Assembly: GCA_016208495.1 (NCBI GenBank)
Contig: JACQXX010000016.1
Span: 1-64,000, forward strand
Reading direction: 5' to 3'
Origin: Acidobacteriota bacterium
GTDB taxonomy: Bacteria > Acidobacteriota > Blastocatellia > Chloracidobacteriales > Chloracidobacteriaceae
Length of the DNA stretch: 64,000 nucleotides
Part shown: positions 15,320 to 51,230 of the stretch, one piece after another
Position numbering within the stretch: position 1 is the stretch's first letter
Layout: every line of letters starts with the position of its first letter
Notes under the pieces: generated by a model
The model's database searches: none
What the model saw: the letters and a program-made list of their open reading frames with translations, nothing else
Told to the model about the DNA's origin: nothing
Made by a program: the position numbers and the translations under genes

Positions 15320-15513
15320 CCACGTGACAAGGTGACCACGTGACAAGGTGACAGATTGGTTTTTCCAGGTCTGGAGAATTGGTTTACACAAAAAATAGGA
15401 CAAACCCAGAAAATTTGGACAGACCCTGTGAGTCATTTATATTTCATGTGGTTACCTTGTCACCTTGTCACCTTGTCACCTTGTCACCCTGTCACCCTGT
15501 CACCCTGTCACCT
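15309..15513. repeat. TGACAAGG octamer array with inverted arm
   Basis: The left arm (15309-15356) has units TGACAAAG, TGACCACG and TGACAAGG and begins inside the anti-sigma gene, supplying its last codons and stop. The right arm (15451-15513) is CACCTTGT/CACCCTGT and ends at the ATG of the methyltransferase. The centre shares TTATATTTCAT with the inverted centre of the 13.1-kb array, so the two are related elements in opposite orientation. Confidence 0.9.
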
Positions 15514-16170
15514 ATGCCCTCCCCACCTCCTCATCCTGATCTCCCGTACGGTTCAATTGCCAAAGGATATGACCGGGGAATGCGGTTCTTTGAGCGGCAT
15601 CTCTTCGGATGGCGGCGGGCTGAATTAATTCCCAAAGCGACCGGAGATGTCCTGGAACTTGGGGCGGGAACAGGTGTCAATTTGATGCTTTACACCAGTG
15701 CCCGCTCACTGGTGCTGACAGACCCAGACCCGTTGATGCTGGAGAAAGCCCGGACCAAACCCCGGTTGCCAGGGCTTGACGTTCAGTTTATCGAGGCTTC
15801 CGCCGAGCAACTTCCCTTTCCCGATCAGAGTTTCGACACCGTGGTCGCGACCCTTGTGTTTTGCAGTATTCCCCGCCCAACAGTCGCCCTGGCTGAAATT
15901 CGGCGGGTACTGAAACCTGGGGGTAAATTACTCCTGCTTGAACATATCCGCCCTTCCCCGCTATTGTTAGGATTCATCACTGATTGTTTGACACCGCTCC
16001 AAAAACGGCTCTGCGGCGGCTGTCATCTCAATCGTCGAACGGTTTCCACAATTCAGGCCCAGGGATTTTCAATCCAACACGTCAGATTTTCTAAATTTGA
16101 TGTTGTGGCAACCCTCGAAGCCACACTTTCTCATCCGAGTTCATCACCCATTGCTCGTTGGAAAACATGA
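15514..16170 (+). CDS. class I SAM-dependent methyltransferase
   Basis: A 218-residue methyltransferase of the UbiE/Methyltransf_11 type: motif I VLELGAGTGVN (about 47-57), acidic loop LTDPDPLML, FDTVVATLVFCSI, and LKPGGKLLLLEHI. The C-terminal CGGCHLNRRT segment is typical of phospholipid/quinone-type family members, but the acceptor is unknown. ATG 15514 comes immediately after the repeat array and lacks a usable ribosome site; a longer frame upstream translates the repeat itself (TLSPCH units) and is not credible. The later ATG at 15583 cannot be excluded. Confidence 0.85.
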   Translation: MPSPPPHPDLPYGSIAKGYDRGMRFFERHLFGWRRAELIPKATGDVLELGAGTGVNLMLYTSARSLVLTDPDPLMLEKARTKPRLPGLDVQFIEASAEQLPFPDQSFDTVVATLVFCSIPRPTVALAEIRRVLKPGGKLLLLEHIRPSPLLLGFITDCLTPLQKRLCGGCHLNRRTVSTIQAQGFSIQHVRFSKFDVVATLEATLSHPSSSPIARWKT

Positions 16171-16249: not shown

Positions 16250-19200
16250 ATGAACAGCCAGGATTCGGCACGCCCCATAAGCCGTTTCTGCAGACCACAC
16301 CCTGTCTGGCGTGTGATCGTGCTCCTGGTGTCTCTGATCGGTCTTTCATCGCCGGGCCGGGCGCTGGAACCAGCCAAAAACATTACCCAATACATCCACG
16401 ATGTCTGGCAGGATGAACTTCCACAGGTGTCAGTGTTGACAGTCGCCCAAACCCAAGATGGGTATCTCTGGCTTGGCACCTATGAGGGACTGGTCCGCTT
16501 TGACGGCATTCAGTTCAGCGTCGTTCACCCGCAAAATCTGAACATTCCCAAAAGCAACGGGGTCTTTTCCCTGTTTGAAGATTCACAGGCCCGCCTGTGG
16601 GTCGGAACAGTTGGCGGAGGACTCCTGTGCCTCAAGAATGGACAATTTTCTGGCTATTCAATCCAGAACGGGTTGCCAGATAACAGCGTGCGCGCCATTT
16701 GCGAAGATCAAAAAGGCAATATCTGGATTGGAACGGAAGATGGTCTTGGGTTGCTTGAAAATGGCAAAATCCGGGTATTTACCACTCGGGATGGCCTGGG
16801 CAGCAATGTGATTCGGACCCTCTGCTGCGATCAGGCCGGAAGAGTCTGGGTTGGCACTATTGGCGGCCTCTCGTGCTTTGAAAATGGCGCCTTTACCTGC
16901 CTGACCACAACCCAGGGACTGCCAAACAATCGGGTGAATGCAATTTATGAAGACCGCCAACATACCATTTGGGTTGGGACCGAAGGCGGGGGCTTGAGTC
17001 GGTGGCAAAATGGTCACTTTCAGAACTACACGGCTCAGCAAGGGCTCGCCAACAATATCATTTTGTCAGTTTTGGAAGACCGGGATGGCAATCTGTGGAT
17101 TGGCACCGATGGTGGCGGGTTAAACCGGTTGAAAAAAGATGGGACCATCGCTCGCTTTTCGTCCAAAGATGGCCTTTCCCAGAATGCCGTTCGGTCACTC
17201 TTTGAAGACCGTGAGGGCAGTTTGTGGGTCGGCACCAGCAGCGGTCTCAATCGGCTTCGCGATGGGAAGTTTGTGACCTACACGGTCCAGGACGGGCTTT
17301 CAAATAACTACCTGCGGACGATTTTTGAAGACCGCCAGGGAACCGTCTGGCTTGGGAGCGAAGGTGGCGGGCTCACCAGCTTTCGAAATGGGGCATTTAC
17401 TTCCTACACCACCGACCAGGGGTTAGCCAGTAACCTGGTGCGCACCGCTTGTGAAGATCTGGAAGGCAATATCTGGGTGGGAACCAACACCGGGCTCAGT
17501 TGCCTGAAAAATGGAACGTTTACCACCTATACCACCAAAGACGGGCTGGCGAATGACAACCTGTATGTCATTTATTGTGATCGGGCTGGCCGCATCTGGA
17601 TTGGCACCGCCTTTGCCGGACTTAATGTGTATGAAAATGGCCGCTTTCATACCTACACCACCAAAGATGGGCTGGCCAATAACAGCGTGCGGGCGATTTT
17701 TGAAGATCGCCAGGGTGGGTTCTGGATCGGAACCAACAGCGGGCTCAGTTATTTCAAAAATGGTGTTTTCAAAAACTACACGACCCAAAGCGGAATCATC
17801 AACGACCGGGTCTTTGCCTTCTTTGAAGATACGGACGGATCAATCTGGATGGGCACCAATGGGGGGTTAGCCCACTTCGGCCAGGGCCGGTTTACCAATT
17901 ACACGACCAAAGACGGACTGTTTGATGATGTTGCTTTTCAGATTTTGGAAGACAATCAGGGCCAGTTCTGGATGGGGTGCAACAAAGGGCTTTACTGTGT
18001 TCCCAAACGGGCATTTGAACAGCTTGACCGGCGGGAAATTGCCGTGCTGCCCTGTGTGTCATATGGCAAAACGGATGGCATGCGGACCAATCAGTGCAAT
18101 GGCGGCTCACAGCCATCCGCCTGGAAAACCCGAAATGACAAACTCTGGTTTCCAACCGCCAAGGGTGCCGTGGTCATTGATCCAATGTCCATCAAATTAA
18201 ATCAACTGGCACCACCCGTTGTCATTGAGGCGGTGGTGCAAGGTTCTGAAAAATTTGTTCCGTCAACGTTCCTGACCTTTGAACCTGGAGAAAATCGGTT
18301 TGAGTTTCGTTATGCCGGGCTCAGTTACCTGGCCCCTGAAAAAGTTCGGTTCAAATGCAAGCTGGAAGGCTTTGACCCGACCTGGGTTGATGTCGGGACC
18401 CGGCGCGTGGCCTACTACACCAATTTGCCCGCCCGTACCTACACCTTCCGGGTCATGGCGTGCAATAACGATGGCGTCTGGAACGAAATTGGCACCAGCT
18501 TTCGCTTTCGATTAAAACCACCACTCTGGCAAACGTGGTGGGCTTATACACTGTACCTGCTTACGATTGCCGCCGTGATCTATGGCAGCGTGCAGTGGCG
18601 ATTGAACCAGTTACATCGCCGGGCGCTGTTGCTGGAAAGCAAAGTGGTTGAACGAACCCAGGAACTGGCCCAGGCTAACCAGCAGTTAGAAAGTTCACAA
18701 AAAGAAACCCTGTGGAAAAATGAGCAACTCCTGGTGGTCAATCAGGAAGTCGAGCGCAAAAACGAGCAACTTGACCGTAAAAACCGTGAGCTGGATACCA
18801 AAATTGCCGAATTGGCCAAAAAGAACGACGAACTGCTGGCGTCGCAAAAACAGGCGGATCGAATCTTTTCAGCCTTAGCCGAAGCATTACCCGGCACGGT
18901 GCTGGATGGCAAATATCGGCTCGATGAAAAAATCGGGAGCGGTGGGTTTGGCGCCGTTTTCCGAGCTGCTCACCTTGGCCTCAATCGCCCGGTGGCGATC
19001 AAAGTCTTTAAACCCAAACCTGGAAACGATTCACCGGAAGCGGTTGAGCGGTTTCGCCGGGAAGGAATTTCCGCCTGCCGGGTCAATCATCCCAATGCCA
19101 TCACGGTCCTTGATTCCAGTATTTCATCCGAAGGTATCGCCTATCTGGTGATGGAACTGCTGGAAGGCCACACGCTGACCAGCGAGCTGCAGCGAGCGGG

Positions 19201-20050
19201 GCGGCTCTCACTCAAACGATGCGCCGAAATCATCCTTCCGGTGTGCCAGGTGCTTGACGAAGCGCACCGGGCCGGACTCGTCCACCGCGATATCAAGCCT
19301 GACAATATCTACCTCCATCAAACCAAAGAAGGCGAAATCGTCAAAGTTCTGGATTTTGGAATTGCCAAGTTGATGGACGATACCAACGACTCAAATCTCC
19401 AAAATCTGACTGAAACGGGTGGCATTGTCGGTACCCCAACCTATATGTCACCGGAACGCCTGAAAGGTGATGAGTATGATGGACGGGCCGATGTGTACAG
19501 TTTGGGGATTGTGCTTTATGAAATGCTCTCTGGGCGAGTGCCCTTTCAGCCTTCCAGCCGAGGGGTGGTTGAGGTCATGCTCAAACATCTCAATCACCAG
19601 CCGCCGCCGTTGCGCGATACGTTGCCGGATTTACCAATCAGTGTTGAGTTTGTGGTCATGGCCTCGCTTCGGAAGGTGGCCACTGATCGCCCAAACGCGA
19701 TTGAGTTTGGAAACTTACTGTCCAGGGCCGTGGCTGAGAGTCTCGGGGTGGATCAGGAAGTATTTTATCGAAGCGGCCCCATTACCGCGCCACTCCCGCT
19801 TCCAACTCAGCAACTGGACAGCCAGCAAACCAACTATCACCATCTGGCTCATGCCGAAACACTGCATGGGGCATTTACCATGGAGGATCATCCCACGATT
19901 GTGGGGAATCGCTGGGACAAAGATGATACGCCGACTATCATCGGCCACCAGCCCCTGACAACCAATGTTATTTCGGAAGCCGCTTCGGAACGAACCACGG
20001 AGCGAAAACTCACTGAAAAAGTTATCCCCAAAGAAGAAACCCTGACTTGA
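16250..20050 (+). CDS. propeller sensor fused to Ser/Thr protein kinase
   Basis: A 1266-residue transmembrane receptor. The signal peptide covers about 1-39. Residues 55-615 hold 13 W(I/V/L)GT blades of the two-component-regulator propeller type; a Y_Y_Y domain lies at about 675-760, one membrane helix at 765-783 and a coiled coil at 790-880. The kinase domain starts at LDGKYRLDEKIGSGGFGAVF (about 884), with lysine K918, HRDIKPDN (D1014), DFG and GTPTYMSPERL all present, so it should be active. The tail (about 1160-1266) repeats HPTIVG and TPTIIG. Propeller-Y_Y_Y sensors normally end in a histidine kinase; here a eukaryotic-type kinase replaces it. An external ligand probably drives phosphorylation of Ser/Thr targets. 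Confidence 0.92.
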   Translation: MNSQDSARPISRFCRPHPVWRVIVLLVSLIGLSSPGRALEPAKNITQYIHDVWQDELPQVSVLTVAQTQDGYLWLGTYEGLVRFDGIQFSVVHPQNLNIPKSNGVFSLFEDSQARLWVGTVGGGLLCLKNGQFSGYSIQNGLPDNSVRAICEDQKGNIWIGTEDGLGLLENGKIRVFTTRDGLGSNVIRTLCCDQAGRVWVGTIGGLSCFENGAFTCLTTTQGLPNNRVNAIYEDRQHTIWVGTEGGGLSRWQNGHFQNYTAQQGLANNIILSVLEDRDGNLWIGTDGGGLNRLKKDGTIARFSSKDGLSQNAVRSLFEDREGSLWVGTSSGLNRLRDGKFVTYTVQDGLSNNYLRTIFEDRQGTVWLGSEGGGLTSFRNGAFTSYTTDQGLASNLVRTACEDLEGNIWVGTNTGLSCLKNGTFTTYTTKDGLANDNLYVIYCDRAGRIWIGTAFAGLNVYENGRFHTYTTKDGLANNSVRAIFEDRQGGFWIGTNSGLSYFKNGVFKNYTTQSGIINDRVFAFFEDTDGSIWMGTNGGLAHFGQGRFTNYTTKDGLFDDVAFQILEDNQGQFWMGCNKGLYCVPKRAFEQLDRREIAVLPCVSYGKTDGMRTNQCNGGSQPSAWKTRNDKLWFPTAKGAVVIDPMSIKLNQLAPPVVIEAVVQGSEKFVPSTFLTFEPGENRFEFRYAGLSYLAPEKVRFKCKLEGFDPTWVDVGTRRVAYYTNLPARTYTFRVMACNNDGVWNEIGTSFRFRLKPPLWQTWWAYTLYLLTIAAVIYGSVQWRLNQLHRRALLLESKVVERTQELAQANQQLESSQKETLWKNEQLLVVNQEVERKNEQLDRKNRELDTKIAELAKKNDELLASQKQADRIFSALAEALPGTVLDGKYRLDEKIGSGGFGAVFRAAHLGLNRPVAIKVFKPKPGNDSPEAVERFRREGISACRVNHPNAITVLDSSISSEGIAYLVMELLEGHTLTSELQRAGRLSLKRCAEIILPVCQVLDEAHRAGLVHRDIKPDNIYLHQTKEGEIVKVLDFGIAKLMDDTNDSNLQNLTETGGIVGTPTYMSPERLKGDEYDGRADVYSLGIVLYEMLSGRVPFQPSSRGVVEVMLKHLNHQPPPLRDTLPDLPISVEFVVMASLRKVATDRPNAIEFGNLLSRAVAESLGVDQEVFYRSGPITAPLPLPTQQLDSQQTNYHHLAHAETLHGAFTMEDHPTIVGNRWDKDDTPTIIGHQPLTTNVISEAASERTTERKLTEKVIPKEETLT

Positions 20051-21146: not shown

Positions 21147-21698
21147 ATGCGCATCATTTCCGGACAATTCAAAGGCAGGCGGATCCGAACCGTTGATGGA
21201 CTCAGTGTCCGACCAACGTCGGACCGGCTGCGTGAAACACTCTTCAATATCTTGTCAACGCAGGTTGTGGAGGCCCGCTTTTTAGATCTGTGTGCCGGCT
21301 CAGGCGCGGTTGGAATTGAAGCCTGTAGCCGAGGCGCCAGTCAGGTCACCTTTGTTGAAAATGCACGGCATGCCGTCCGAATGCTGATTGACAACCTGAC
21401 CGCACTCGGGATTGAAGATGGCGTTGAGCTGATCCAGCGTGATGTACTCAAAGCGCTCAAGCAATTGATGACGGAAGAACGCGCCTACGATTTCATTTTT
21501 TTTGATCCGCCCTACGCCTCACCCGTCTATCAACCGGTGTTGAAACAACTGGGTGAAAGCAAGCTGCTGTCACCCGACGGATGGCTGGTGGTTGAGCACC
21601 ACGCCAAGCAAACGCTGCCGGAAACGGTGGGCCTGCTGCGCCGCTTTCGCGAAGTCCGCCAGGGCGAGACGTCGTTGAGTTTTTATGCCAATGTGTAG
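21147..21698 (+). CDS. rsmD: 16S rRNA (guanine(966)-N(2))-methyltransferase
   Basis: A 183-residue RsmD. The N-terminus MRIISGQFKGRRI and RPTSDRLRETLFNIL are the family signature; the SAM site is FLDLCAGSGAVGIEA (about 49-63) and the catalytic motif is FFDPPYASPVY (about 121). It methylates N2 of G966 in helix 31 of 16S rRNA on the assembling 30S subunit. ATG 21147 matches the conserved start. coaD, a common downstream neighbour, is absent. The stop codon TAG is the first unit of a 7-bp tandem array. Confidence 0.93.
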   Translation: MRIISGQFKGRRIRTVDGLSVRPTSDRLRETLFNILSTQVVEARFLDLCAGSGAVGIEACSRGASQVTFVENARHAVRMLIDNLTALGIEDGVELIQRDVLKALKQLMTEERAYDFIFFDPPYASPVYQPVLKQLGESKLLSPDGWLVVEHHAKQTLPETVGLLRRFREVRQGETSLSFYANV

Positions 21699-21835
21699 TC
21701 AGTAGTCAGTAGTCAGTAGTCAGTAGTCAGTAGTCAGTAGTCAGTAGTCAGTAGTCAGTAGTCAGTAGTCAGTAGTCAGTAGTCAGTAGTCAGTAGTCAG
21801 TAGTCAGTAGTCAGTAGTCAGTAGTCAGTAGTCAC
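21696..21835. repeat. AGTAGTC heptamer array, about 20 copies
   Basis: About 140 bp of near-perfect 7-bp tandem units (GTAGTCA) starting with the stop codon of rsmD and ending at a short inverted tail, CACTACTGACGACTGACC (to about 21850). It is the longest and most uniform array in the window, so it is probably young or actively changing in length. Confidence 0.95.
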
Positions 21836-24693: not shown

Positions 24694-24860
24694 TGACAAG
24701 ATGACCAAATGACAGGGTGACAGAGTGACACGGTGACTTTTTGACAAGATGAGACAGTGATGATTTATCACCTTGTCATCCTGTCACCCTGTCATCCTGT
24801 CACCTTGTCATCCTGTCACCTTGTCATCCTGTCACCTTGTCACCTTGTCATCCTGTCAAT
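24694..24860. repeat. TGACAAGG octamer array with inverted arm
   Basis: Left arm 24694-24757 (TGACAAGA, TGACAGGG, TGACACGG units), right arm 24767-24860 (CACCTTGT, CATCCTGT, CACCCTGT units). It lies 17 bases after the hutU stop. The rest of the gap to the next gene (24861-25084) shows no gene, terminator or repeat that I can identify. Confidence 0.9.
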
Positions 24861-25084: not shown

Positions 25085-28000
25085 ATGTCCCCCGCTCGAT
25101 TGGCTCGTGACTTTCTGCGTAATGGCTGGCAACCTGGAACACTCATCCTGGGGCTCCTGTTACTTAGCTCGCTTCCAGTGCAGGCACTTGATCGAACGAA
25201 AGCCATCACACAATATCGTCAAACAATTTGGACGAAAGAAACTGGGCTCCCCAATAACGCGATCCTCGCCCTGGCGCAAACGGGTGATGGATATCTCTGG
25301 TTGGGAACCTTTCAGGGACTGGTCCGGTTTGACGGAGTTCAGTTCACGGTCTTGAACAAAAACACCGTTCCAGAATTCAAAAATAATACCACATGGAAAC
25401 TGCTGGTCAGTTCGGAGGGCACGCTCTGGGTCGGTACCAACGGCGGCGGGCTCATGGCCTACAAAAATGGCCAGTGGAAAACCTTCACCCCCGAACACGG
25501 ACTGGCCTCTGAAATCATTTCGGCTTTATTTGAAGATCGCCAGAAACGACTCTGGATTGGCACCCGCAAAGGGTTGAATTATCTGTCCTTAGCGTCACCT
25601 GATCAAGGATTCCAACGAGTTGACACCCTGGATGGGAAAGCAGTCTCCGATATTCGGGCGATTGGACAATCCGCTGACGGCACCATTCTCCTGGGCAGCC
25701 AGAATACGCTGTTTCAAGTATCTAGCCACACCGGATCGCTGGCATTGACCACCTACCAAACCCTTGAGGGCCAAATCGTCGCGCTCTTTACTGACCGGAA
25801 GCAAAATTTCTGGATTGGCACCATCGGGGCCGGAGTGTACCAGGAACGACCCGATCACACCCTGACCCACTTCACCAATGCGAACGGATTCCCAGGTACG
25901 GTGGCGTCTGTCTTTTGTGAAGATCGGGACGGAAACCTGTGGATTGGCTCCGCTAAAATTGGATTGGTTCGGATTACGAACGGCACATTTACCACTTTCA
26001 GCCACTCAGATGGCCTCTCTGGCGAGGATGTGTCATCTCTCTTTGAAGATCGTGAAGGAAATCTCTGGGTTGGAACCTACCGGGATGGGCTGAATCAGTT
26101 CCAAAACGGGAAATTTCTCACCTACACCACCAAAGAAGGGGTATCACACAACCTCATCTGGCAAATTCAGGAAGCCTCAGACCACAGCCTCTGGATCGGG
26201 ACCAATCAGGGACTCACCCACCTGGCCAACGGCACCCTCACCAGCTTCACCGCGAGTCCTTTTAATTCAACGATCTACAGCATTTTACAGGATCAATCCG
26301 GAACCTGGTGGGCTGGAACGCAAAGCAATGGGCTCGTTCAATTTCATCCAGATTCCCCCACCCGCCCACTTGCGACCTTCACGACTCAAACCGGGCTGCC
26401 CAGCAATCAGGTTCGGGTTTTGTGTGAAGACACCCAGGGAAATCTCTGGTTGGGGACACCAGCGGGATTGTGCCGCAAAAGTGGAACGACGATTACAACA
26501 TTCACCACCGAAAATGGCCTCCCCTTAAATGTCATTCTGGCAATTACCTGTGCCAAAGATGGGAGTGTGTGGGTTGGAACCGATGGAGGCGGACTCATCC
26601 GGTTTCAAAATGGCCAGTTTACTACCTTCACACGAACAGAAGGTCTTCTAAGCAACGTCATTTTATCGCTGTATGAAGACGTAGACGGAATTATTTGGGT
26701 GATTACCAATGCCGGGTTGTGCTATGTGCAGGAAGGCAGACTACGAACTTTGAGTCAGCTTCCTGGCAATCAACCCGAAACACTCCATCAAATGATCGAA
26801 GACACCCAGGGAAATTTTTGGATTGGGAGTGGGAATGGAATTCTTCGAGTGAATCGCAAGGCATTGCTCCAGTTTGCTCAGGGGCAAACTTCAAGCGTGG
26901 AAACAGCGATTTTCACAGAGTTTGACGGCATGAAAACTGAGGAAACCAATGTCCCAGCCCTAGCCATGAGAGCGTCTGACGGAAGGCTCTGGTTCCCAAC
27001 CTTGCGCGGAATAGCCATGATTGATCCAGTCAACATACCGATCAATCAAGTACCTCCCACCGTCGTTATGGAAAGCGTCACGGCCAATGGAGAAGTCATG
27101 CGCCCAGGCCCAGACGAGCTGGCCCTGGCTTCGTTTCAGAATACCTTTGAAGTGACCTGTTCGATCTTGAGTTTTTCCGCCCCTGAAAAAAATCGCCTCA
27201 AGTACCGCCTGGCTGAACTCCAGTCACCGTGGAACGAGGTGCAAGGAAAACGCACCCTTTCTTTTTTCAATATTCCCGCTGGGAAATACACGCTCGAAAT
27301 TCTGGCCTGTAACAACGATGGCGTATGGAACACACTTCCCAACCGTCTGGCGGTTCACATTCAGACATCCCCCTGGCGTTCGCCCTGGGCAATTCTGGTT
27401 TACAGTGGAATTGTAATTGGGCTGATTTTCAGCACCACCCGCTTCCGTACCGGGTACCTGGTTCGACAAAACCAACGGCTTCAAATTCAAGTGGCTGAAC
27501 GGACTCGAAAACTGGCGGAAACCGCATTTCATTTGTGGCGGCAGCAACAGGAACTGGAGCACCAAAAAAATGTGCTGGCCGAAGCCAACCTGAAACTCCA
27601 GGAAATGGACCAGCTCAAAGCGAGCTTTACCGCCATGCTGGCTCATGATTTGAAGTCTCCGCTCAGCGTGGTCAAAACCGCGATTGAACTGTTGCAAATG
27701 GAATCTTCGATTGCCGCAGGTCCGCTGGCTTCTCTGCTCGAAGCCTCAGACCGCAGCCTGGATAAAGTCCTGACGTTGATTTCAGAAATGCTCGAAGTGT
27801 CACGCGCCGAAGCCCAGGAAATGAAATTGTCCTGTGCTCCGCTGGAAACCGAATCTTTTGTGCGTCAGTGCGTTGAGGATATCCGTGTCAGTGCCCAGAC
27901 TCGGCGGATTGCCCTCGAAATCCAGCTTGAACCAGGCTTACCGGCCATTTCGGCTGACCGTGGAAAATTGGAGCGCGTCTTTGCCAACTTGCTGTCCAAT

Positions 28001-28807
28001 GCCCTTAAATTTACTCCCAATGGCGGCAAAATTTCAGTTGCAGGCAGTGTCGAATCTGGAACTGGGGTTGAAATCGGTCAGCACTTCCTGAAAATTTCAA
28101 TCACCGATACCGGCGAAGGGATTCCCGCCGAAGACATTCCGTATTTGTTTGAACCGTATCGGCAATCAAAATCAACCAAAAAGCAGTTGGGTGTCGGTCT
28201 CGGGTTGACGATAGTAAGGCGCATCGTGGCAGCGCACGGAGGCAATATCTCAGTTCACAGCCAGTTAGGCGTTGGAACGTGTTTTACGGTGCTCCTGCCG
28301 GCTCTCCCGCCTGAAGCATCGTCTCTGGCCGAAGTATCACCGTCATCAGTGGTGACTGAAGATAAATCGTTTGTCTCCGCAGTCCCCAATGCGGCTGATG
28401 TCAACTCAATACCGCCCATTTCACCACGTGTTCTGATTGCGGAAGACAATCCGGTCAGTCAAAAAATCCTGGCCGCCCAGGTCAAAAAACTTGGCTATCA
28501 GGTCGAAGTCGTCAACAACGGACTCGAAGCCGTCAACGCCTTTGAAACATCGCGATTTGATGCCATTTTGATGGATTGCTATATGCCTGAAATGGATGGA
28601 TTTACCGCCACTCAGGCTATTCGTCGCAAGAAAAGCCATCGTTCCAACATCAGAATCATTGCACTGACGGCTGAAACAACCGTTGAAACAGTGGAAAAAT
28701 GTCTGCAAATCGGCATGGATGACTTTTTAGGAAAACCCTTTACCTTTGAGGATTTGAAGGCTTTGTTACAACGGTGGGTGCCAATTGTCGCGACCGAAGA
28801 GGGCTGA
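25085..28807 (+). CDS. propeller hybrid sensor histidine kinase/receiver
   Basis: A 1240-residue hybrid two-component protein. The signal segment covers about 18-35; propeller blades (LWLGTFQGL through FWIGSGNGI) span about 55-610; the Y_Y_Y domain is near 665-750 and a membrane helix near 760-780. The HisKA box is MLAHDLKSPLSVV (phospho-acceptor H854); the ATPase domain (about 955-1085) has DTGEGIP and GVGLGLTIVRRI; the receiver (about 1117-1235) has LIAEDNP, LMDCYMPEMDG (acceptor D1164) and a conserved Lys in FLGKPF. All catalytic residues are present. There is no AraC output domain, so signal leaves through phosphorelay. Its stop is the TGA of a GGGCTGA repeat unit. Confidence 0.93.
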   Translation: MSPARLARDFLRNGWQPGTLILGLLLLSSLPVQALDRTKAITQYRQTIWTKETGLPNNAILALAQTGDGYLWLGTFQGLVRFDGVQFTVLNKNTVPEFKNNTTWKLLVSSEGTLWVGTNGGGLMAYKNGQWKTFTPEHGLASEIISALFEDRQKRLWIGTRKGLNYLSLASPDQGFQRVDTLDGKAVSDIRAIGQSADGTILLGSQNTLFQVSSHTGSLALTTYQTLEGQIVALFTDRKQNFWIGTIGAGVYQERPDHTLTHFTNANGFPGTVASVFCEDRDGNLWIGSAKIGLVRITNGTFTTFSHSDGLSGEDVSSLFEDREGNLWVGTYRDGLNQFQNGKFLTYTTKEGVSHNLIWQIQEASDHSLWIGTNQGLTHLANGTLTSFTASPFNSTIYSILQDQSGTWWAGTQSNGLVQFHPDSPTRPLATFTTQTGLPSNQVRVLCEDTQGNLWLGTPAGLCRKSGTTITTFTTENGLPLNVILAITCAKDGSVWVGTDGGGLIRFQNGQFTTFTRTEGLLSNVILSLYEDVDGIIWVITNAGLCYVQEGRLRTLSQLPGNQPETLHQMIEDTQGNFWIGSGNGILRVNRKALLQFAQGQTSSVETAIFTEFDGMKTEETNVPALAMRASDGRLWFPTLRGIAMIDPVNIPINQVPPTVVMESVTANGEVMRPGPDELALASFQNTFEVTCSILSFSAPEKNRLKYRLAELQSPWNEVQGKRTLSFFNIPAGKYTLEILACNNDGVWNTLPNRLAVHIQTSPWRSPWAILVYSGIVIGLIFSTTRFRTGYLVRQNQRLQIQVAERTRKLAETAFHLWRQQQELEHQKNVLAEANLKLQEMDQLKASFTAMLAHDLKSPLSVVKTAIELLQMESSIAAGPLASLLEASDRSLDKVLTLISEMLEVSRAEAQEMKLSCAPLETESFVRQCVEDIRVSAQTRRIALEIQLEPGLPAISADRGKLERVFANLLSNALKFTPNGGKISVAGSVESGTGVEIGQHFLKISITDTGEGIPAEDIPYLFEPYRQSKSTKKQLGVGLGLTIVRRIVAAHGGNISVHSQLGVGTCFTVLLPALPPEASSLAEVSPSSVVTEDKSFVSAVPNAADVNSIPPISPRVLIAEDNPVSQKILAAQVKKLGYQVEVVNNGLEAVNAFETSRFDAILMDCYMPEMDGFTATQAIRRKKSHRSNIRIIALTAETTVETVEKCLQIGMDDFLGKPFTFEDLKALLQRWVPIVATEEG

Positions 28808-28990
28808 GAAAACCAGGGCTTGGGGCTCAGGGCTGAAGAACTAGTTTTATTTCATCCCTCATCCCTCATCCCTCATCCCTCATCCCTTTCTGTGCCCCGA
28901 GCTTGCGAGTCTTTCTGCCCCAAGCCCTCAGCCCTGGTTTTCTCAGCCCGACGTCTTCAGCCCGCTTTCTTCAGCCCGATATTCTTCTGC
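28801..28990. repeat. GGGCTNA heptamer element between convergent kinases
   Basis: Units GGGCTGA, GGGCTTG and GGGCTCA (28801-28838) are followed by CATCCCT heptamers (about 28855-28888), then the inverted C-rich arm AAGCCCTCAGCCCTGG to 28990. The left edge encodes the stop codon of the upstream hybrid kinase; the right edge encodes the last residues and stop of the convergent minus-strand kinase. There is no separate terminator in this 135-base gap. Confidence 0.9.
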
Positions 28991-31900
28991 CCCATTTTCC
29001 TGATACACCAGCGGCAACACGATATGAAAACAACTGCCGTGGCCTTTCCCGATTGATTCGGCCCAGATTCGGCCTCCGTGGGCTTCGACATAACTTTTGG
29101 CAATCGCCAGCCCCAGGCCAGTTCCCCGGGCGGAAAATTCAAAGCGGCCCGAAGTATGCGTTGACGGGTCAGGCGTGGTGTAAAACTTCTCGAAGATCTG
29201 CTCAATTTCCTCTGGATCAATCCCGATTCCGCTGTCCTTGATCGAAAGGTGAATGGTGTCCAGTTCCTGAACCAGCGTGACCTGAACTTCCCCACCGTCA
29301 TAGGTAAATTTAATTGCGTTTTGAATGATATTGATCAGGACCAGTTGTATCTTTTCAATGTCGCCAACCAGCGTGATTGATTCAGGAATGTTTTTGAGAA
29401 ATGTCTGGTTGCGCTGATCGATAAATGGTGACAACTCGACCAGAATTTCCTGAATAGCCGCTGAGAGATCAAACGTGGTGACTTTGAGTGACACGTTCCC
29501 TTCATTAATTTTGAGCATTTCCAGAATGTCATTAAATGTAATCACCATGCGATCAATCATCCGCTGGCAAGTCAGCAACGATCTCTTTTGGGCTTTGGTC
29601 AAGGGGCCCAAATACTCGTCAAGCAACGCCTCGCTATAGCCTTTGAGCACCGTGAGCGGCGTGCGGATTTCGTGTGAGGTGATAATCAGGAAGTTCGTCT
29701 TCATTTGATCGAGTTCCTGCAACCGCCGCGTGACATCGCGTTCCTGGTTATAGAGCCGTTCAAGTTCGCCATAGAGCGCGGCTTTTTCAATCGCAACCGC
29801 CGCCTGGTGCGCCAACGATTCAATCAACTGACAATCAGCCTGGGTAAACGGCAATCTTCCAGCCGGACGCCGCACATCAAGCACCCCGACTACTTTCCCG
29901 GTGCGTGAAATAATCGGCACATCCATCATGCCCAGGACATCAAATTTCTTGATTAAGGCATGGAAGGCAATTTCGTCTGAATGTTCTGAATCATTGACGA
30001 GCATCGGCGTCGCCGTGGCGGCGACCCGACCGGCGACGCCTTCGCCAAACTGGAAGACCAGCGGTTCATCAACCCAATGATCGCGCATCCACAGGCGGCG
30101 GAAGACAACCTGTTCACCTTCAATCAACCCAATGCCACCTGGCTCGCCTTCAATTAACTGGGCGCTTTCCTGGGCAATGTTTTGCAAAACAGTGTTCAAA
30201 TCGAGTGGCAGGTTGATGACCCGAATACTTTCGAGCAAATGCCGCAAACTGGAGATTCGTTCTTCCTGGAGTTGATGCAGGTGGGCAATTCGCTCCTCCT
30301 GCAATTGCCGCAAATGGGCGACTTTTTCAGCCTGTCGTCGTCGCAACGCCTGCACACGCCACGAATAAATGGCATAACCGATACCAAAGATCACCCCGGC
30401 ATAAAAGAAATATGCCCAGATGGTTCGCCACGGGGCTGGCAACACCCGAAAGGTTGCCGTTACCGGTCCGCTGATGTTTCCGGCATAATCCCTGGCCCAA
30501 ACCTGGAAGGTATAGTTCCCGTCCGGCAGCGAGGTATATTCTTTTTTGGTATCAATTTTCCATTCTGAACGCTGCTCGTCAAAGTTGACCAACTGGGTCT
30601 GGTAGCGGGTTTCGGCTTCGCGGAAATAGCTCAGCAGGGCATATTCAAACACCAGATTGTTTTCGTTGTACTCAAAGATCGCGTTCTGGGGCACACCGTT
30701 GGGTGACCCCTCAAACAGCTTTCCATTCAACAGTATGCGCTCAATCAGGAGTTGTTTTGGCGAGCGATCAATAAATTCGGTGCCTGGATCCAGCATTGCC
30801 GCCCCTTCCAGCGTCCCCGCCCAAATACAGCCATTCCGGTCCACCATGGCCGCCCCTTGATTGCACTCGTTGCTTGGCAGACCGTCATCAGTGGTAAAGG
30901 TGTAGAGCGAAAATTCATCTGGATTCCAGGCACGCAGCCTTTTTGGCGTCAGTCTGGCCACGCCCCGATTGGTAAATAAATACATGCGGTGCTGCTGGTC
31001 CTGGCAAATCTGGTTGATGGTGTTGTTGGGAAATCCAGGCAGGTTTTGGTCAGAGATGGTCCGCCATTGTAGGCCAGTCGAAGTTGGGTCAAATACGCTG
31101 ACCCCGCCACCACCAGTGCCAATCCAAAGCGTCCGATGGCCGTCACTCCCCATGGCTTCACACAAACTCCAGACAAAGTTATTGGCCAGACCGGAATTTT
31201 GGGTATCAAAGACCGTCCACTGGTTGTTGTGAAATCGCACCAGTCCTTTTCCATCGGTTCCAAGCCAGAGCACCTGTGACCCATCATCGGCTTTGGTGGC
31301 AACCAGCACCAGCACCTCGTCACTGGGGAGGCCCGAATTCTGGTGATTCAACACCGTCCAGTTGGTGCCTTTGATGCGAACCACACCGCCCCCAGCCGTC
31401 ACGACCCAGAGCACGGGTGTCCCGTCAGCGTCCACAGTTTGAGCCAGACTCCACACCAGGTTACTTGGGAGTTTTGAGTTTTCCGTCGTGTAAACAGTCC
31501 ACTGATTGCCACGCAGGCAGGCCAATCCGCCACCGTTCATGCCCATCCAGATGGCCTGACCACCACCTGGATCCCGACTTTGCAACAGGCAAAGCACTCG
31601 ATTATTTGGAAGACCGGAATTTTGAGTTGTGAAGCTGGTCCACTGGCCGTTTTCCAGTCGAGCCAGTCCGCCACCAGCCGTTCCCAACCAGAGTACCCGC
31701 TGGCCGGTCACGGATTGGGTCTCCAAAAGGCTCAGGATCACATTATTGGCCGTGCCAGCCGTGGCCGGCACGTAGGTGGTCCAGGTTCCCGAGCGCAATC
31801 GTGCCAGTCCATTGATCGTTCCAGCCCAGATGGTATAGGCCCCATCCGGTGACACCGATTTGTAAAGGCTCATCACGGCATCATTTGGCAAGGCTGACGT

Positions 31901-32899
31901 TTGTCGGTTGTAGCTCACCCATCGCCCATTCTGGTATCGCACCAGACCGCTGCCATAACTTCCAACCCACAGGGTGCGGGTTTGATCAGGTTCAATCGTT
32001 TCAACCAGTCCCAGGACCCGATTTTTGAGCAATCCAGTCTGCTGGGGATCAAAAACCGTCCACTGGTCATCGTGTATTTTGGCCAGTCCGCCTTCTGCCG
32101 TCCCAATCCAAAGTGCCTGTTTTCCAGGTGATTCGGTGGTTTCAAGCAAACTGAGAACCTGATTGTGCGGCAACGGCGACGTGCCGGTGGTAAAAGCCGT
32201 CCATTTTCCCTGAGCCAGTCGTGCCAGTCCCCCGCTGGTGCCCACCCACACCACAGCCGAACCATCCACGGCCTTTGTTTTGAGCAAACAGTTGACCGCC
32301 TTATGCGGCAAGCCGGAGTTTTCAGGGGTCAGCGTCTTCCACTGATTGTTTTCAAAAGTGGCAAGTCCCCCGCTCGTTCCAACCCACAACACACTGTTCC
32401 CAGCCGGCTCCCGAACTTCTTCAAAACAAAACACATTGTCAGTGGGCACGGCTCCGGTTTCTGTCGTGAAAGTTGTCCAGTTACCGTTTTGCAAACGAAT
32501 CGCCCCATTGCCCGTTGTCCCAAACCAGATGCTGCCATCCGAAGCGGCATACACCGTGCGGACATAGTTGGATCGCATCCGATTGGGCATATTGACCGTC
32601 GTCCAGCGATGACCGTTGTAGCAAGTTGCCCCATCCTGGGTGCCAGCCCAGAGATAGCCTTTTTGATCGGTGGTAAGCGATAAAATCGAATTTTGCGGCA
32701 ACCCATCCTGATTGCTAAAGATGTGCATCCCTGGCCGTCCGCCTGGAAACCCATCTGGTGTTGCTAAAGCGGGCACCTGTCCAGATGGCGCTGGCGGTAT
32801 CGGTACTGGCGTTGCTGACACAGACCACGACTCACCCCACCAGGAATAGCCCAGCAGGCACAACACCAACATGGGGGGAAGAAGCTGTCGGCGGTCCAT
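28943..32899 (-). CDS. propeller sensor histidine kinase with GAF domain
   Basis: A 1318-residue membrane sensor. The signal segment covers about 5-30; propeller blades of variant form LWVGTSGGLATF with longer inserts span about 55-650; the Y_Y_Y domain is near 740-810 and a membrane helix near 815-835. A coiled linker (HLRQLQEERI repeats) leads to a GAF domain (about 880-1030), then HisKA with SHEIRTPLTVLKGY (acceptor H1076) and an ATPase domain with DSGIGIDPEEIEQ and GTGLGLAIAKSYVEAHGG. There is no receiver domain, so a separate response regulator is needed; none is adjacent. The C-terminal tail RAEESGLKTSG and stop are encoded by the GGGCTGAAGA repeat. Full catalytic set present. Confidence 0.93.
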   Translation of the reverse strand: MDRRQLLPPMLVLCLLGYSWWGESWSVSATPVPIPPAPSGQVPALATPDGFPGGRPGMHIFSNQDGLPQNSILSLTTDQKGYLWAGTQDGATCYNGHRWTTVNMPNRMRSNYVRTVYAASDGSIWFGTTGNGAIRLQNGNWTTFTTETGAVPTDNVFCFEEVREPAGNSVLWVGTSGGLATFENNQWKTLTPENSGLPHKAVNCLLKTKAVDGSAVVWVGTSGGLARLAQGKWTAFTTGTSPLPHNQVLSLLETTESPGKQALWIGTAEGGLAKIHDDQWTVFDPQQTGLLKNRVLGLVETIEPDQTRTLWVGSYGSGLVRYQNGRWVSYNRQTSALPNDAVMSLYKSVSPDGAYTIWAGTINGLARLRSGTWTTYVPATAGTANNVILSLLETQSVTGQRVLWLGTAGGGLARLENGQWTSFTTQNSGLPNNRVLCLLQSRDPGGGQAIWMGMNGGGLACLRGNQWTVYTTENSKLPSNLVWSLAQTVDADGTPVLWVVTAGGGVVRIKGTNWTVLNHQNSGLPSDEVLVLVATKADDGSQVLWLGTDGKGLVRFHNNQWTVFDTQNSGLANNFVWSLCEAMGSDGHRTLWIGTGGGGVSVFDPTSTGLQWRTISDQNLPGFPNNTINQICQDQQHRMYLFTNRGVARLTPKRLRAWNPDEFSLYTFTTDDGLPSNECNQGAAMVDRNGCIWAGTLEGAAMLDPGTEFIDRSPKQLLIERILLNGKLFEGSPNGVPQNAIFEYNENNLVFEYALLSYFREAETRYQTQLVNFDEQRSEWKIDTKKEYTSLPDGNYTFQVWARDYAGNISGPVTATFRVLPAPWRTIWAYFFYAGVIFGIGYAIYSWRVQALRRRQAEKVAHLRQLQEERIAHLHQLQEERISSLRHLLESIRVINLPLDLNTVLQNIAQESAQLIEGEPGGIGLIEGEQVVFRRLWMRDHWVDEPLVFQFGEGVAGRVAATATPMLVNDSEHSDEIAFHALIKKFDVLGMMDVPIISRTGKVVGVLDVRRPAGRLPFTQADCQLIESLAHQAAVAIEKAALYGELERLYNQERDVTRRLQELDQMKTNFLIITSHEIRTPLTVLKGYSEALLDEYLGPLTKAQKRSLLTCQRMIDRMVITFNDILEMLKINEGNVSLKVTTFDLSAAIQEILVELSPFIDQRNQTFLKNIPESITLVGDIEKIQLVLINIIQNAIKFTYDGGEVQVTLVQELDTIHLSIKDSGIGIDPEEIEQIFEKFYTTPDPSTHTSGRFEFSARGTGLGLAIAKSYVEAHGGRIWAESIGKGHGSCFHIVLPLVYQENGAEEYRAEESGLKTSG

Positions 32900-35052: not shown

Positions 35053-35228
35053 GGGCTCAGGGCCTGGGGCTGCAAACACCAGGGCTTGGGGCTGAAGAAG
35101 TTGGGCTCAGGGTATTGAACCCGTTTTTTTCAGCCCCGAGCTTGCGAGTCTTCAGCCCCAAGCCCCATAAGCCCTTAGCCCTGGTTTTCTCAGCCCGACT
35201 TCTTCAGCTCAACTTCTTCAGCCCGATG
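35053..35228. repeat. GGGCTNA heptamer element, inverted relative to 51.1 kb
   Basis: The G-rich arm (GGGCTCA, GGGCCTG, GGGCTTG, GGGCTGA units) runs 35053-35120, then core GGGCTCAGGGTATTGAACCC, then the C-rich arm to 35228. The core is the reverse complement of one in the 51101-51230 element, so the same element occurs in both orientations. Its right end encodes the last residues and stop of the adjoining histidine kinase. Confidence 0.85.
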
Positions 35229-38200
35229 TCTCAAGTCGGTCAGTTCACTGGTCATGGTGTCTGGACGCAGACCAAGGGGAAGCACAATGTGAAAGGTGCT
35301 GCCGGTTCCGACTCCGTTTGATTCAGCCCAGATCTGACCGTTGTGGGCTTCGACATAGCTTTTTGCAATTGCCAGCCCAAGCCCTGTCCCGCGGGCTGAA
35401 AACTCAAAGCGTCCTGACCGATGCGTCGAAGGATCCCGATTCGTATAAAACTTATCAAAAATGTGGGTCAGGTCCACCGCATCAATCCCAATACCAGAAT
35501 CCTGGATCAGGATATGAACGGACCCGGCTTCCCGGGTGACAACAACCTGAATTTCACCATGGTCTGGGGTGAACTTAATTGCATTTTGAATGACATTGAT
35601 CAAGACCAACTCAACTTTTTCGCAGTCTGCCGAGATAGTTAACTGATCAGGGATTTCGACTTTCACCTGTTGTTTGCGTTGCTCAATAAACGTGTTTAAC
35701 TCAGCCAGCACGTTGCTCACAGCGGTATTCAAATGAAATACTTTCGGTTTGAGCGTCATCTGGCCAGCGTTGATTTTGACCATTTCCAGAATGTCGTTAA
35801 AGCTACGAGTCAATCGGTCAACCATCCGGTGACAGGTGGTCACCGACACTCGTTGGGCTTCGGTCAGGGGACCAAGATATTCATCCAGCAATGCCTCGCA
35901 ATATCCACGCAGGACCGTGAGCGGCGTCCGCATTTCGTGCGAAGTGACAATCATGAAATTGGTCTTCATCTGGTCCAGCTCTTTGAGCTTGCCCGCAAAT
36001 TCGTGTTCCTGTTTATAGAGCTTTTCGAGTTCGTTCATTGACTCGACAATGACCAGGTTTTTGGCTTCCAGTTCATTTTTCTTTTCTTCAACCACTCCAT
36101 AGAGTGCCGCATTTTCAAGCGCCACCGCCGCCTGATTGGCCAGAGATTCGACCAGTTGCCGATCATTGTCGCTAAAGGGTGGGGATCCTGCCCGATGACG
36201 GATATCAAGCACTCCCACCACCTGACCATCACGTGACACAATCGGCACCTCCATCATTCCTTCGACCTGGTAGACATCAAGCGTCTCAGGTTGGGTGATA
36301 TATGGTGAGTGGCGCGGATCATCCACAATCATGGTTTGTTTCGTCTCGGCAACTCGACCGGCAACCCCTTCACCGATTTTGAACGTGAGCAGGCTATCTT
36401 CCCAGTGGTCGGTGGCCCAGAGACGGTGAAACCGAACCTCGTCTCCTTCGAGTAAGCCAATCCCTCCCGGTTCGCCACCTACCAGCCGGGCGCTTTCTTC
36501 GACGATATTTTGCAAAACAATTGTCAGGTCAAGCTTGGAATTGATCAGCCGAATACTTTCCAGCAATTGCCGCATGCCCTGTAATCGTTCTTCGTGAATC
36601 TGAGACAGATATTCGACCCGCTGTTGCTGAAGCTGGCGCAGATGTTCCAGTTTTTGCTCCTGCAACTGTTGCAAATGGGCAATGCGCTGTTCTTCGCGGA
36701 GCCGCAATCCACGAATCCGCAGCAGGTAACCGCCGTAAATACTACCGCTCACCAGGAAAATTCCAGCCAGTTGAAACCACCAGGCATTCCAAAACGGAGG
36801 CTTGATGGTGAATTCAATCGTGGAAACCTGGCTCCACACCCCAGAAGCCGCTTTGGCTTTGACCAGAAACCGATAGTCACCCGGCATCAAATTGGCATAG
36901 CGGGCAATCCGGTTGGCTGTTTCCAGAGACCAGGTACTGTCAAGACCTTCAAGTTGATAGCTGTAGCGAATCGCGGTTTCATCCGTGAACGACAAACACA
37001 AAAATTCGAAAGAAACGTCATTTTGATGATGAGAGAGTACCGGCAACCGAAACCGGGTCGCCTCAGTTTGTGAGATGAGCTGAACCGGCTTTTCTTCAAC
37101 CAGCACCGGTGCCAGTGCCAATCGTGGGATCATGGCTCGCGCAACATCAAGTGCCGTTTGGTATCGCACCACGCCTTCGCCAGTGCCAAACCAAATGGTT
37201 CCATCACGCCGCCGGAGGGCCAGCCCAAACCCAATATCATCACTGGCTAACCCATCTTTGGTCGAATAATTGCGGAAAGTTTGGCCATCATACGCCGAAA
37301 TCCCACGGGTAGTGCCAATCCATAACTTTCCATCACCGCTCACAATTGCCCGCACGGCATTACTGGGCAACCCGTCATTGGTGGTAAAGCTGGTAAAGGT
37401 CGTGCCCACCAGCCGGGATAAGCCACCATCCGTTCCGACCCAGAGGGTGCCAGTCGGATCAAAATAGGCATATTGCGCCCGATTTCCAGGCAAGCCCTGT
37501 CCAATCCGGTAGTGTGAAAACTGGGTTCCATCAAAATGGCTCAACCCTTTGTCAGAGGAAATCCAAATGGAACCATCCGGCCCACGAGTCAAAGTATTGA
37601 TCGGATTTTGGAGCAATCCCTGGTTCGTTGTCATCAAGGAAAATTTCTGGCCGTCATACACGGCAATTCCGTTGCTGGTGGTTGGATAGGAGCCAAACCA
37701 GATTCGGCCTTGTTGATCTTCGCTGATGGCAGTCACGCGTTCGCGTAATCCCATTTGCTGACGAGTGAACGTCTGAGTTTTTTGACCATCCAGACAGGTA
37801 ACGCCGTTGTACCCGCCAACCCAGATGCGGCGATGTGAATCAGCAAACAGCGACCAGAGTGTTTCTTCAAGCAAGCCTTCCTTGATTCCCAAATGCCGGG
37901 TGGCGCCGGTTTTTGGGTTTAGCGCAAATAATCCGTTGGTGGCGGTGGCAATCCACACCTGTTCATCCGGGGTTTCAGCAATTCCCGTAATCCGCCCATC
38001 ACCAAGACCATGGGCGGCAGTATAGCTGGCAAACACTTCGCTGCTAAATCGAAAGGCTCCGTTTGACTGAGTCCCAAACCAGAGATTCCCTTCGTAATCT
38101 TCAAGCACCGCTGTCAACATATCGTTCGGAATCCCATTGGCCCGATCAAAGATTTTGACGCCATCTGGATCAATTCGATTGATTCCACCGCCAAACATTG

Positions 38201-38987
38201 CGCACCAAATGCGATGATATCGGTCAATCAGAATCTTGCCGGCTTGAGGGCTGTTGAGCCCGTCTTTGGTGGTGTAGGTGCGAAATGTGGTTCCATCAAA
38301 AAAGCAGGGGCCGCCGTTGGTGGCAAACCAAACCCCACCAAACGGGTCAATATCAACATCAAACGCACTCTCTCCGGGCAGCCCGTCAGCCAGGGTATAT
38401 ACTGTCGCCGTGGTGCCGTTAAATTTTCCGACTCCTCCGCCACGAGTCACAAACCAGACTGTTCCAGCCGAATCCTGGGCCAAACTCCAGATAGGCCAGT
38501 TGGGGAGCCCGGCTTCTTTCCCGAAATGGACAAACCGTTGGCCATCAAAGTGGCTTAACCCGGCGGCGGTACCCAGCCAAAGACTTCCATCTGGTGACTC
38601 CAACCCCGAGTAGACATGATCATCCAGCAACCCTTGAGCCGTGGTGTAGTTCGTAAATTTTCCCTGCTCAAAACAACTCAGGCCGCGCATGGTACAAAAC
38701 CACAGGCGGCCTTTTCGATCCTCAAAGATAGTCCGAACGCTACTATCCGCCAGTCCTTGTTGAACGCCAAACGTCGTGAAATTGGCGCCATCATAGCGAC
38801 AGGCACCGCTGTCAGTCCCAAACCAGATATAGCCCTGGCGATCCTGATACAGGCAATAAATAGTATTCCCTGGCAACCCCATGCTGGCGGTGTAGGACGT
38901 AAAGCGGTAAATCTGCGCAACTGTCTTGTCAGGCGACAAGAGCCCAATCACAAACGCACAGATGAGCAGAAGTCCATTCCAACGCAT
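35190..38987 (-). CDS. propeller sensor histidine kinase with GAF domain
   Basis: A 1265-residue paralogue of the kinase at 28943-32899. The signal segment covers about 5-25; propeller blades (YIWFGTDSG, RLWFCTMRG, LWVGTDGG and others) span about 30-590; Y_Y_Y about 645-725; membrane helix about 735-755; coiled HLQQLQEQKLEHL repeats; GAF about 815-970; HisKA SHEMRTPLTVLRGY (acceptor H1017); ATPase domain with DSGIGIDAVDLTH and GTGLGLAIAKSYVEAHNG. No receiver. ATG 38987 is preferred; an in-frame TTG at 38999 is possible, and neither has a clear ribosome site because a repeat lies just upstream. The tail RAEEVELKKSG and stop come from the GGGCTGAAGA repeat. Confidence 0.92.
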   Translation of the reverse strand: MRWNGLLLICAFVIGLLSPDKTVAQIYRFTSYTASMGLPGNTIYCLYQDRQGYIWFGTDSGACRYDGANFTTFGVQQGLADSSVRTIFEDRKGRLWFCTMRGLSCFEQGKFTNYTTAQGLLDDHVYSGLESPDGSLWLGTAAGLSHFDGQRFVHFGKEAGLPNWPIWSLAQDSAGTVWFVTRGGGVGKFNGTTATVYTLADGLPGESAFDVDIDPFGGVWFATNGGPCFFDGTTFRTYTTKDGLNSPQAGKILIDRYHRIWCAMFGGGINRIDPDGVKIFDRANGIPNDMLTAVLEDYEGNLWFGTQSNGAFRFSSEVFASYTAAHGLGDGRITGIAETPDEQVWIATATNGLFALNPKTGATRHLGIKEGLLEETLWSLFADSHRRIWVGGYNGVTCLDGQKTQTFTRQQMGLRERVTAISEDQQGRIWFGSYPTTSNGIAVYDGQKFSLMTTNQGLLQNPINTLTRGPDGSIWISSDKGLSHFDGTQFSHYRIGQGLPGNRAQYAYFDPTGTLWVGTDGGLSRLVGTTFTSFTTNDGLPSNAVRAIVSGDGKLWIGTTRGISAYDGQTFRNYSTKDGLASDDIGFGLALRRRDGTIWFGTGEGVVRYQTALDVARAMIPRLALAPVLVEEKPVQLISQTEATRFRLPVLSHHQNDVSFEFLCLSFTDETAIRYSYQLEGLDSTWSLETANRIARYANLMPGDYRFLVKAKAASGVWSQVSTIEFTIKPPFWNAWWFQLAGIFLVSGSIYGGYLLRIRGLRLREEQRIAHLQQLQEQKLEHLRQLQQQRVEYLSQIHEERLQGMRQLLESIRLINSKLDLTIVLQNIVEESARLVGGEPGGIGLLEGDEVRFHRLWATDHWEDSLLTFKIGEGVAGRVAETKQTMIVDDPRHSPYITQPETLDVYQVEGMMEVPIVSRDGQVVGVLDIRHRAGSPPFSDNDRQLVESLANQAAVALENAALYGVVEEKKNELEAKNLVIVESMNELEKLYKQEHEFAGKLKELDQMKTNFMIVTSHEMRTPLTVLRGYCEALLDEYLGPLTEAQRVSVTTCHRMVDRLTRSFNDILEMVKINAGQMTLKPKVFHLNTAVSNVLAELNTFIEQRKQQVKVEIPDQLTISADCEKVELVLINVIQNAIKFTPDHGEIQVVVTREAGSVHILIQDSGIGIDAVDLTHIFDKFYTNRDPSTHRSGRFEFSARGTGLGLAIAKSYVEAHNGQIWAESNGVGTGSTFHIVLPLGLRPDTMTSELTDLRHRAEEVELKKSG

Positions 38988-39002
38988 AAGGATAATCAAA
39001 TC

Positions 39003-40866: not shown

Positions 40867-41055
40867 AGAATGAAGAAGTGGTTAGTGGTTAGTGGTTAGT
40901 GGCTGGTTCTTGGTTCTTGGTTCTTGGTTCTTGGTTCTTGGTTCTTGGTTCTTGGTTCTTCTTCGAAACTATTGATTTCTAACCACTAACCACTAACCAC
41001 TAACCACTAACCACTAACCACTAACCACTAAATCTTTTCTTCATTTTTCATTCAA
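40867..41055. repeat. GTGGTTA/TAACCAC heptamer element (copy 3)
   Basis: Starts GAATGAAGAAGTGGTTAGTGG, continues with seven or so GGTTCTT units, core CTTCGAAACTATTGATTTC, then CTAACCA units, and ends TTCTTCATTTTTCATTC. The right end holds the stop codon (TGA within TGAATGAA on the minus strand) of the GYF-like gene. Same orientation as the 22.8-kb copy. Confidence 0.9.
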
Positions 41056-42567: not shown

Positions 42568-42846
42568 GGGGGCTGAAGAAACCAGGGCTCAGGGCTGAAG
42601 ACATTGGGCTTGGGGCTGAAGAAACCAGGGCTCAGGGCTCAGGGATCAGGGCTCAGGGCTGAAGACATTGGGCTTGGGGCTTGGGGCTGAAGAAACCAGG
42701 GCTCAGGGCTGAAGACATTGGGCTTGGGGCTTGGGGCTTGGGACTGAAGAAAAAGGGTTAAATGCCTTAAGCCCGGCGTCTTCAGCCCTCAGCCCCAAGC
42801 CCTGGTTTTCTCAGCCCCAAGCCCTCAGCCCGACTTCTTCAGCCCT
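42568..42846. repeat. GGGCTNA heptamer element, long copy
   Basis: The G-rich arm (42568-42745) is built from GGGCTGA, GGGCTCA, GGGATCA and GGGCTTG units interspersed with AGACATT and AGAAACC. The C-rich inverted arm (42780-42846) reads CAGCCCTCAGCCCCAAGCCC. It abuts the TAG stop of the acyltransferase. It makes up most of the 438-base gap upstream of nrdR; the remainder (42407-42567) probably carries the nrdR promoter, but none is evident. Confidence 0.9.
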
Positions 42847-51100: not shown

Positions 51101-51230
51101 CAGGGCTGAAAAAACCAGGGCTGAGGGCTGAAGACTCGAAGACTCGGAGCTGAAGAAAACGGGTTTAATACCCTGAGCCCGATGTCTTCCGCCCTGGTTT
51201 TTTCAGCCCGACTTCTTCAGCCCCAAGCCC
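51101..51230. repeat. GGGCTNA heptamer element
   Basis: Units GGGCTGA and GGCTGAAGA (51101-51155), core ACGGGTTTAATACCCTGAGC, then the C-rich arm TCAGCCC/AAGCCCT to 51230. It starts 8 bases after the hemL stop and joins directly to the palindromic element at 51231. The core matches the reverse complement of the 35.1-kb copy. Confidence 0.85.

Follow-up and report, generated by a model that had tools for sequence, protein, structure and literature searches.

The 64,000-nucleotide stretch of acidobacterial DNA analysed here (the window) carries an open reading frame (16250..20050, + strand, open from ATG, 1266 aa) in which a sensor of the hybrid two-component (HTCS) kind is followed by an intact Hanks-type Ser/Thr kinase. 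We consider the product to be, quite probably, a receptor Ser/Thr kinase that arose as one output cassette was exchanged repeatedly; for this receptor we infer dimerization, a ligand, kinase activity and substrates. Fifteen such propeller–Ser/Thr kinase fusions are present in the genome (8.4 Mb, 177 contigs; 54 places with a Y_Y_Y signal and 122 Pkinase matches), a family that was not part of the earlier note on this DNA. If this reading is correct, a single gene family has repeatedly crossed the divide that separates two-component from Ser/Thr kinase signalling, with a defined junction as the crossing point.

Architecture of the protein

The gene and the parts of its product are as follows.

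16250..20050, +: whole gene, propeller/Y_Y_Y receptor Ser/Thr kinase, 1266 aa
16298..16366, +: N-terminal hydrophobic segment, about residues 17–39 (hydropathy peak at residues 18–40), presumably of signal-sequence or anchor type
16370..18199, +: Reg_prop propellers, about residues 41–650 (Pfam, motif spacing, model, PDB match 4a2l)
18326..18511, +: Y_Y_Y (Ig-like) domain, residues 693–754 (Pfam)
18539..18610, +: putative transmembrane segment TWWAYTLYLLTIAAVIYGSVQW, about residues 764–787 (conserved WWA..Y in alignment A1; helix in model)
18617..18850, +: signalling-helix-like start LLESKVVERTQEL (residues 794–806) and coiled coil to residue 867 (alignment A1, model)
18851..18922, +: cassette entry motif QADRIFSALAEALPGTVLDGKYRL, residues 868–891, nearly invariant in the family
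18914..19705, +: Hanks-type Ser/Thr kinase domain, about residues 889–1152, with K918, D1014 and D1035 present (Pfam, structure matches)
19730..20050, +: C-terminal tail, 106 aa, with AETLHG, DHPTIVG, DTPTIIG and EETLT

Pfam identified Reg_prop (9.6e-77, nine stretches), Y_Y_Y (2.8e-12, residues 693–754) and Pkinase (2.1e-46, residues 889–1105) in the protein. It detected neither HisKA nor HATPase_c there, both of which the same scan found in three paralogues in the window, and no receiver or AraC domain. Thirteen WxG-type blade motifs recur at a spacing of about 41–43 residues in the Reg_prop region, where 14 blades across two propellers are expected. In a sequence search against solved structures, residues 42–761 matched the periplasmic sensor of BT4663 (PDB 4a2l, 1.3e-67), a hybrid system described as sensing heparin/heparan sulphate. 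The AlphaFold model of the sensor (pLDDT 80.7), built from only four sequences, matched the fold of 4a2m (3.4e-43) with TM-scores near 0.45, and thus does not fix the arrangement of the two propellers.

The Bacteroides HTCS proteins BT4663, BT3049 and BT4673 share the sequence and fold of this sensor, its N-terminal position and the predicted transmembrane helix leading to the output, whereas here a Hanks-type Ser/Thr kinase replaces the HisKA, HATPase, receiver and AraC domains. The two Reg_prop propellers and Y_Y_Y sensor that typify BT4663 are therefore present in a protein that lies outside the HTCS class, since the HisKA/HATPase_c transmitter, like the receiver, is absent. The sensor nevertheless most likely works like that of an HTCS. 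Segment 764–787 has a hydropathy below 1.5 alongside its conserved WWA..Y helix and is predicted to insert in the membrane, which homology to HTCS supports. The long coiled coil proposed in the earlier note before the kinase appears as a single helix (about residues 791–878) in the AlphaFold model of the coiled coil/kinase part (pLDDT 89.5), and its length differs among the paralogues in alignment A1.

The kinase itself retains the PF00069 fold with its catalytic Lys, HRD and DFG: GSGGFG at 896–901, K918 within VAIK, H1012-R1013-D1014, D1035-F-G and GTPTYMSPE at 1061–1069, such that the G-loop, activation segment and PE motif are all intact. The earlier note's account of a propeller/Y_Y_Y sensor with a Ser/Thr kinase output, its numbering of K918, D1014 and DFG, and its view that the catalytic residues are intact all agree with these results; an inactive kinase, which it had set against its own reading, finds no support in the sequence. 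In the search against solved structures, residues 882–1147 best matched PknA/PknB, and the kinase model matched PknB 5u94 (1.2e-25, TMt 0.89).

This kinship raises the question of whether the protein is simply one more receptor Ser/Thr kinase like PknD or PknB, its resemblance to histidine kinase sensors having no special meaning. PknD and PknB have the kinase at the N-terminus and the sensor at the C-terminus. Both PknD and other propeller or PASTA receptor kinases are transmembrane Hanks-type kinases, and PknD of M. tuberculosis also has an extracellular, six-bladed propeller, such that propeller receptor kinases are already known (PMC2877116; PMC6213207). However, the domain order is reversed in the protein described here, whose sensor precedes the kinase, is of the HTCS kind with 13 blade motifs in two propellers plus Y_Y_Y, has BT4663 as its best match and is interleaved with histidine kinase sensors of the same genome (see below). 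We therefore think it unlikely that the PknD/PknB comparison accounts for the protein.

A mechanism can be proposed by homology to BT4663, for which a scissor-like movement has been reported in signal passage (PMC8534201). The extracytoplasmic unit of double propeller and Y_Y_Y would bind a ligand, perhaps a glycan, and the signal would reach the Hanks-type kinase by way of a single transmembrane helix followed by a coiled coil that forms a parallel dimer. Ligand binding may alter how far apart the two transmembrane helices in the dimer stand, and the coiled coil would then alter how the two kinase domains meet, leading to trans-autophosphorylation of the activation segment and, subsequently, to phosphorylation of Ser/Thr in substrate proteins. 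Threonine motifs in the C-terminal tail may be sites of phosphorylation or docking. A [PE]T[VIL] pattern, picked after inspection, occurs 22 times in the tails of the 15 paralogues against 4.8 ± 2.1 expected, and is not enriched in other Ser/Thr kinase tails or histidine kinase proteins. Among 19 hold-out tails the excess was modest (12 versus 6.2 ± 2.4, p 0.02), and we regard this enrichment as a lead only.

Probable exchange of outputs under related sensors

Profile A1, which spans the Y_Y_Y-to-kinase region, was combined with fetched genome regions to gather 62 propeller/Y_Y_Y proteins from the genome, with outputs that are Ser/Thr kinases in 15, histidine kinases in 35 and other in 12. The 15 propeller kinases head the profile list for this genome, and seven kinases that lack a propeller also have the coiled coil and a recognizable QADRIFSALAEALPGTVLDGKYRL entry motif; below these seven the score steps down from 476 bits to 425 and on to 324 bits. 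The motif, at the end of the coiled coil and the entry to the kinase, is almost invariant in the family, and 19 proteins from two other genomes carry it too. What precedes the kinase cassette in the seven differs:

L231: multi-TM (multi-pass membrane) domain
L232: 7TMR-DISM
L233 (461–2188, −), L234 (1239–2639, +), L235 (890–2272, −) and L236 (726–2147, −): receiver domain, then coiled coil and Ser/Thr kinase cassette
L237: coiled coil only

Thus, in this genome the cassette is also placed behind a 7TMR-DISM sensor and behind receiver domains. From their domain order, L233–L236 are possible response regulators whose output is a Ser/Thr kinase, which would link His-Asp to Ser/Thr phosphorylation directly.

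In a kinase tree, the cassette kinases form one clade against the other Ser/Thr kinases of the genome (support 100/100), which also holds two related kinases with no coiled coil (L238 and L239) and a long-branched one (L240). The sensors are not sorted by output. In a tree of 55 sensors, obtained by a quick search under a simple model, there are three deep, well-supported clades, each with both Ser/Thr kinase and histidine kinase members. The Ser/Thr kinase label changes 11 times on this tree (shuffled mean 13.4), at least six changes being forced by strongly supported branches, counts that can be inflated because repeat-rich propellers align poorly and may recombine with one another. Monophyly of the kinases by sensor clade was rejected for clades II (p 0.033) and III (p 0.016) and not for clade I (p 0.09); within sensor clade III alone, one Ser/Thr kinase group was borderline and not rejected at 0.05 (p 0.059). 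That sensor and kinase were joined separately at least three times is robust, and larger numbers depend on the alignment of the repeats. No recent swap of outputs was caught in the sensor tree, in which the histidine kinase sensor nearest to that of the gene described here is only 48% identical within the genome.

A single ancient fusion of propeller and Ser/Thr kinase, followed by duplication only, would explain the one kinase clade, the presence of this architecture in every genus sampled from the family and some neighbouring pairs in the sensor tree. It is nevertheless improbable, more so than the PknD/PknB reading, as a single clade of all Ser/Thr kinase sensors was rejected (cost 1329 log units, p-AU 8e-66), those sensors being spread with histidine kinase sensors over the three clades, and the same cassette is found on receiver and 7TMR-DISM proteins. 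Instead, a cassette comprising the end of the coiled coil, QADRIFSALAEALPGTVLDGKYRL and the kinase would have repeatedly replaced, or been replaced by, histidine kinase outputs under related sensors, as the incongruence of the two trees supports. The junction lies after the histidine-kinase-like signalling helix at 794–806, which suggests that the exchange reuses one coiled-coil conduit. Since the outputs are interleaved in the sensor tree, sensors of this class have repeatedly become linked to either phosphorylation system; the earlier proposal that one type of external signal can be routed into both is thus partly supported, for the class of sensor, and the signals themselves may differ.

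More tentatively, and with somewhat less than even confidence, we suggest that in this order a single cassette of signalling helix and Hanks-type kinase acts as a plug-in transmitter, swappable with HisKA/HATPase under several sensors and also used behind receivers. If so, a single Ser/Thr phosphorylation network would receive input both from His-Asp phosphorelays and from sensors at the surface. The related sensors, whose outputs are of either kind, together with the same kinase behind receivers, form a natural test set for whether a Hanks-type kinase can be driven by a coiled coil as a histidine kinase is.

The kinase part might alternatively be a pseudokinase scaffold that binds only ATP or partner kinases. 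We rejected this very improbable reading, as the catalytic motifs are intact both here and in the paralogues checked: the Lys, HRD, DFG and PE positions are kept in 15 of 15 propeller kinases of the genome (alignment A1), and Lys, HRD and DFG in all 19 from two related genomes.

Distribution and relation to known systems

Every genus sampled from the same family (g1–g4) has proteins with both propeller and kinase parts, as does a second family of the order (G011 and G013). An assembly chimaera of a propeller gene and a kinase gene, conceivable in a 177-contig draft, is scarcely credible and was rejected in view of the 15 paralogues and the full-length orthologues in other genomes, two-contig ones included. 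Among 396 genomes of the phylum, with four candidates scored in each, a profile match running from Y_Y_Y through the kinase was confined to this order, and in a set of 199 genomes the top propeller matches from outside the order end near residue 780–885; so few candidates per genome make absence outside the order weak evidence. No match was found at 1e-80 in the phylum of the Verrucomicrobiia genome, and in that of the Planctomicrobium genome 3 of 149 genomes matched at 1e-85, in the kinase part only. The A1 scan of named genomes picked up chiefly generic kinases, because its patterns fell on HRDIKP and DFG, and 0 of these 80 loci had a propeller.

Two of 146 genomes in the phylum of Hyalangium (Myxococcota) have the propeller with the same kinase cassette: G508 at 602 bits across the whole profile, and G461 at 411 bits in the kinase part. 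Propeller kinases with this cassette were located in two genomes of the Myxococcota group at L318 (1004–4525, +) and L319 (3530–6790, −), and may reflect horizontal transfer or misbinned contigs. G201 (family f38), a distant genome within the window's own phylum, encodes a propeller, Y_Y_Y and a divergent kinase joined by a linker of another kind, which contains a zinc-ribbon-like CPSCG segment; this is probably an independent fusion. A probably independent propeller/Y_Y_Y–Ser/Thr kinase fusion with a zinc-ribbon-like linker was observed at L320 (1700–5668, −), in a GC-rich genome of the window's phylum.

The fusion is therefore conserved among the genera sampled in the order, and rare outside it. 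The earlier note had set against its own reading the chance that the architecture is common and already described; it is common only within the order. Within the searched literature, which was incomplete and limited to open-licence papers, we found no description of an HTCS propeller/Y_Y_Y sensor with a Ser/Thr kinase output, of a 15-copy expansion, or of cassette exchange among sensors and receivers. Neither "propeller plus Ser/Thr kinase" nor "shared sensor" is new in principle, as the propeller of PknD is known and a published account describes a CHASE2 sensor common to histidine and Ser/Thr kinases in Nostoc (PMC1262709). The CHASE2–Ser/Thr kinases differ in their sensor, and repeated exchange within the paralogous family of one genome does not figure in the passages cited.

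Neighbourhood of the gene in the window

The following genes lie near the kinase gene, the three paralogues being listed for comparison.

15379..16170, +: methyltransferase gene, just upstream of the kinase gene
25085..28807, +: paralogue, HisKA/HATPase/receiver output (Pfam)
28943..32899, −: paralogue, GAF/HisKA/HATPase output (Pfam)
35190..38999, −: paralogue, GAF/HisKA/HATPase output (Pfam)

In G001, a homologous methyltransferase gene (65% identity) is found immediately upstream of two propeller kinases arranged in tandem, which supports orthology with the G001 protein that is 57–59% identical to the one described here. The 5′ part of the methyltransferase reading frame is a translated octamer repeat, and its true start is therefore probably later than 15379. 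All three histidine kinase paralogues that had been described as next to the gene are real, but they lie 5–19 kb downstream, behind genes for an AAA ATPase and urocanase that are unrelated to them, and two are on the opposite strand; they thus share its neighbourhood rather than one operon.

Several further features of the window were observed. Tandem arrays of 7- and 8-base repeats lie between genes (21695–21834, 15454–15513, 24768–24858 and 40877–41031), one array type consisting of 20 perfect copies of GTAGTCA. Repeats of the GGGCTGAAGAA type occupy gaps at 42570–42738 and 51103–51122, and related sequence ends both the gene at 35190–38999 (−) and the L085 Ser/Thr kinase gene, which share a C-terminal GLKKSG/ELKKSG. 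Finally, a TPR protein with a GGDEF domain is encoded at 10825–13113 (+), adjoining a gene for a sigma-70-type factor and a DUF4349 gene.
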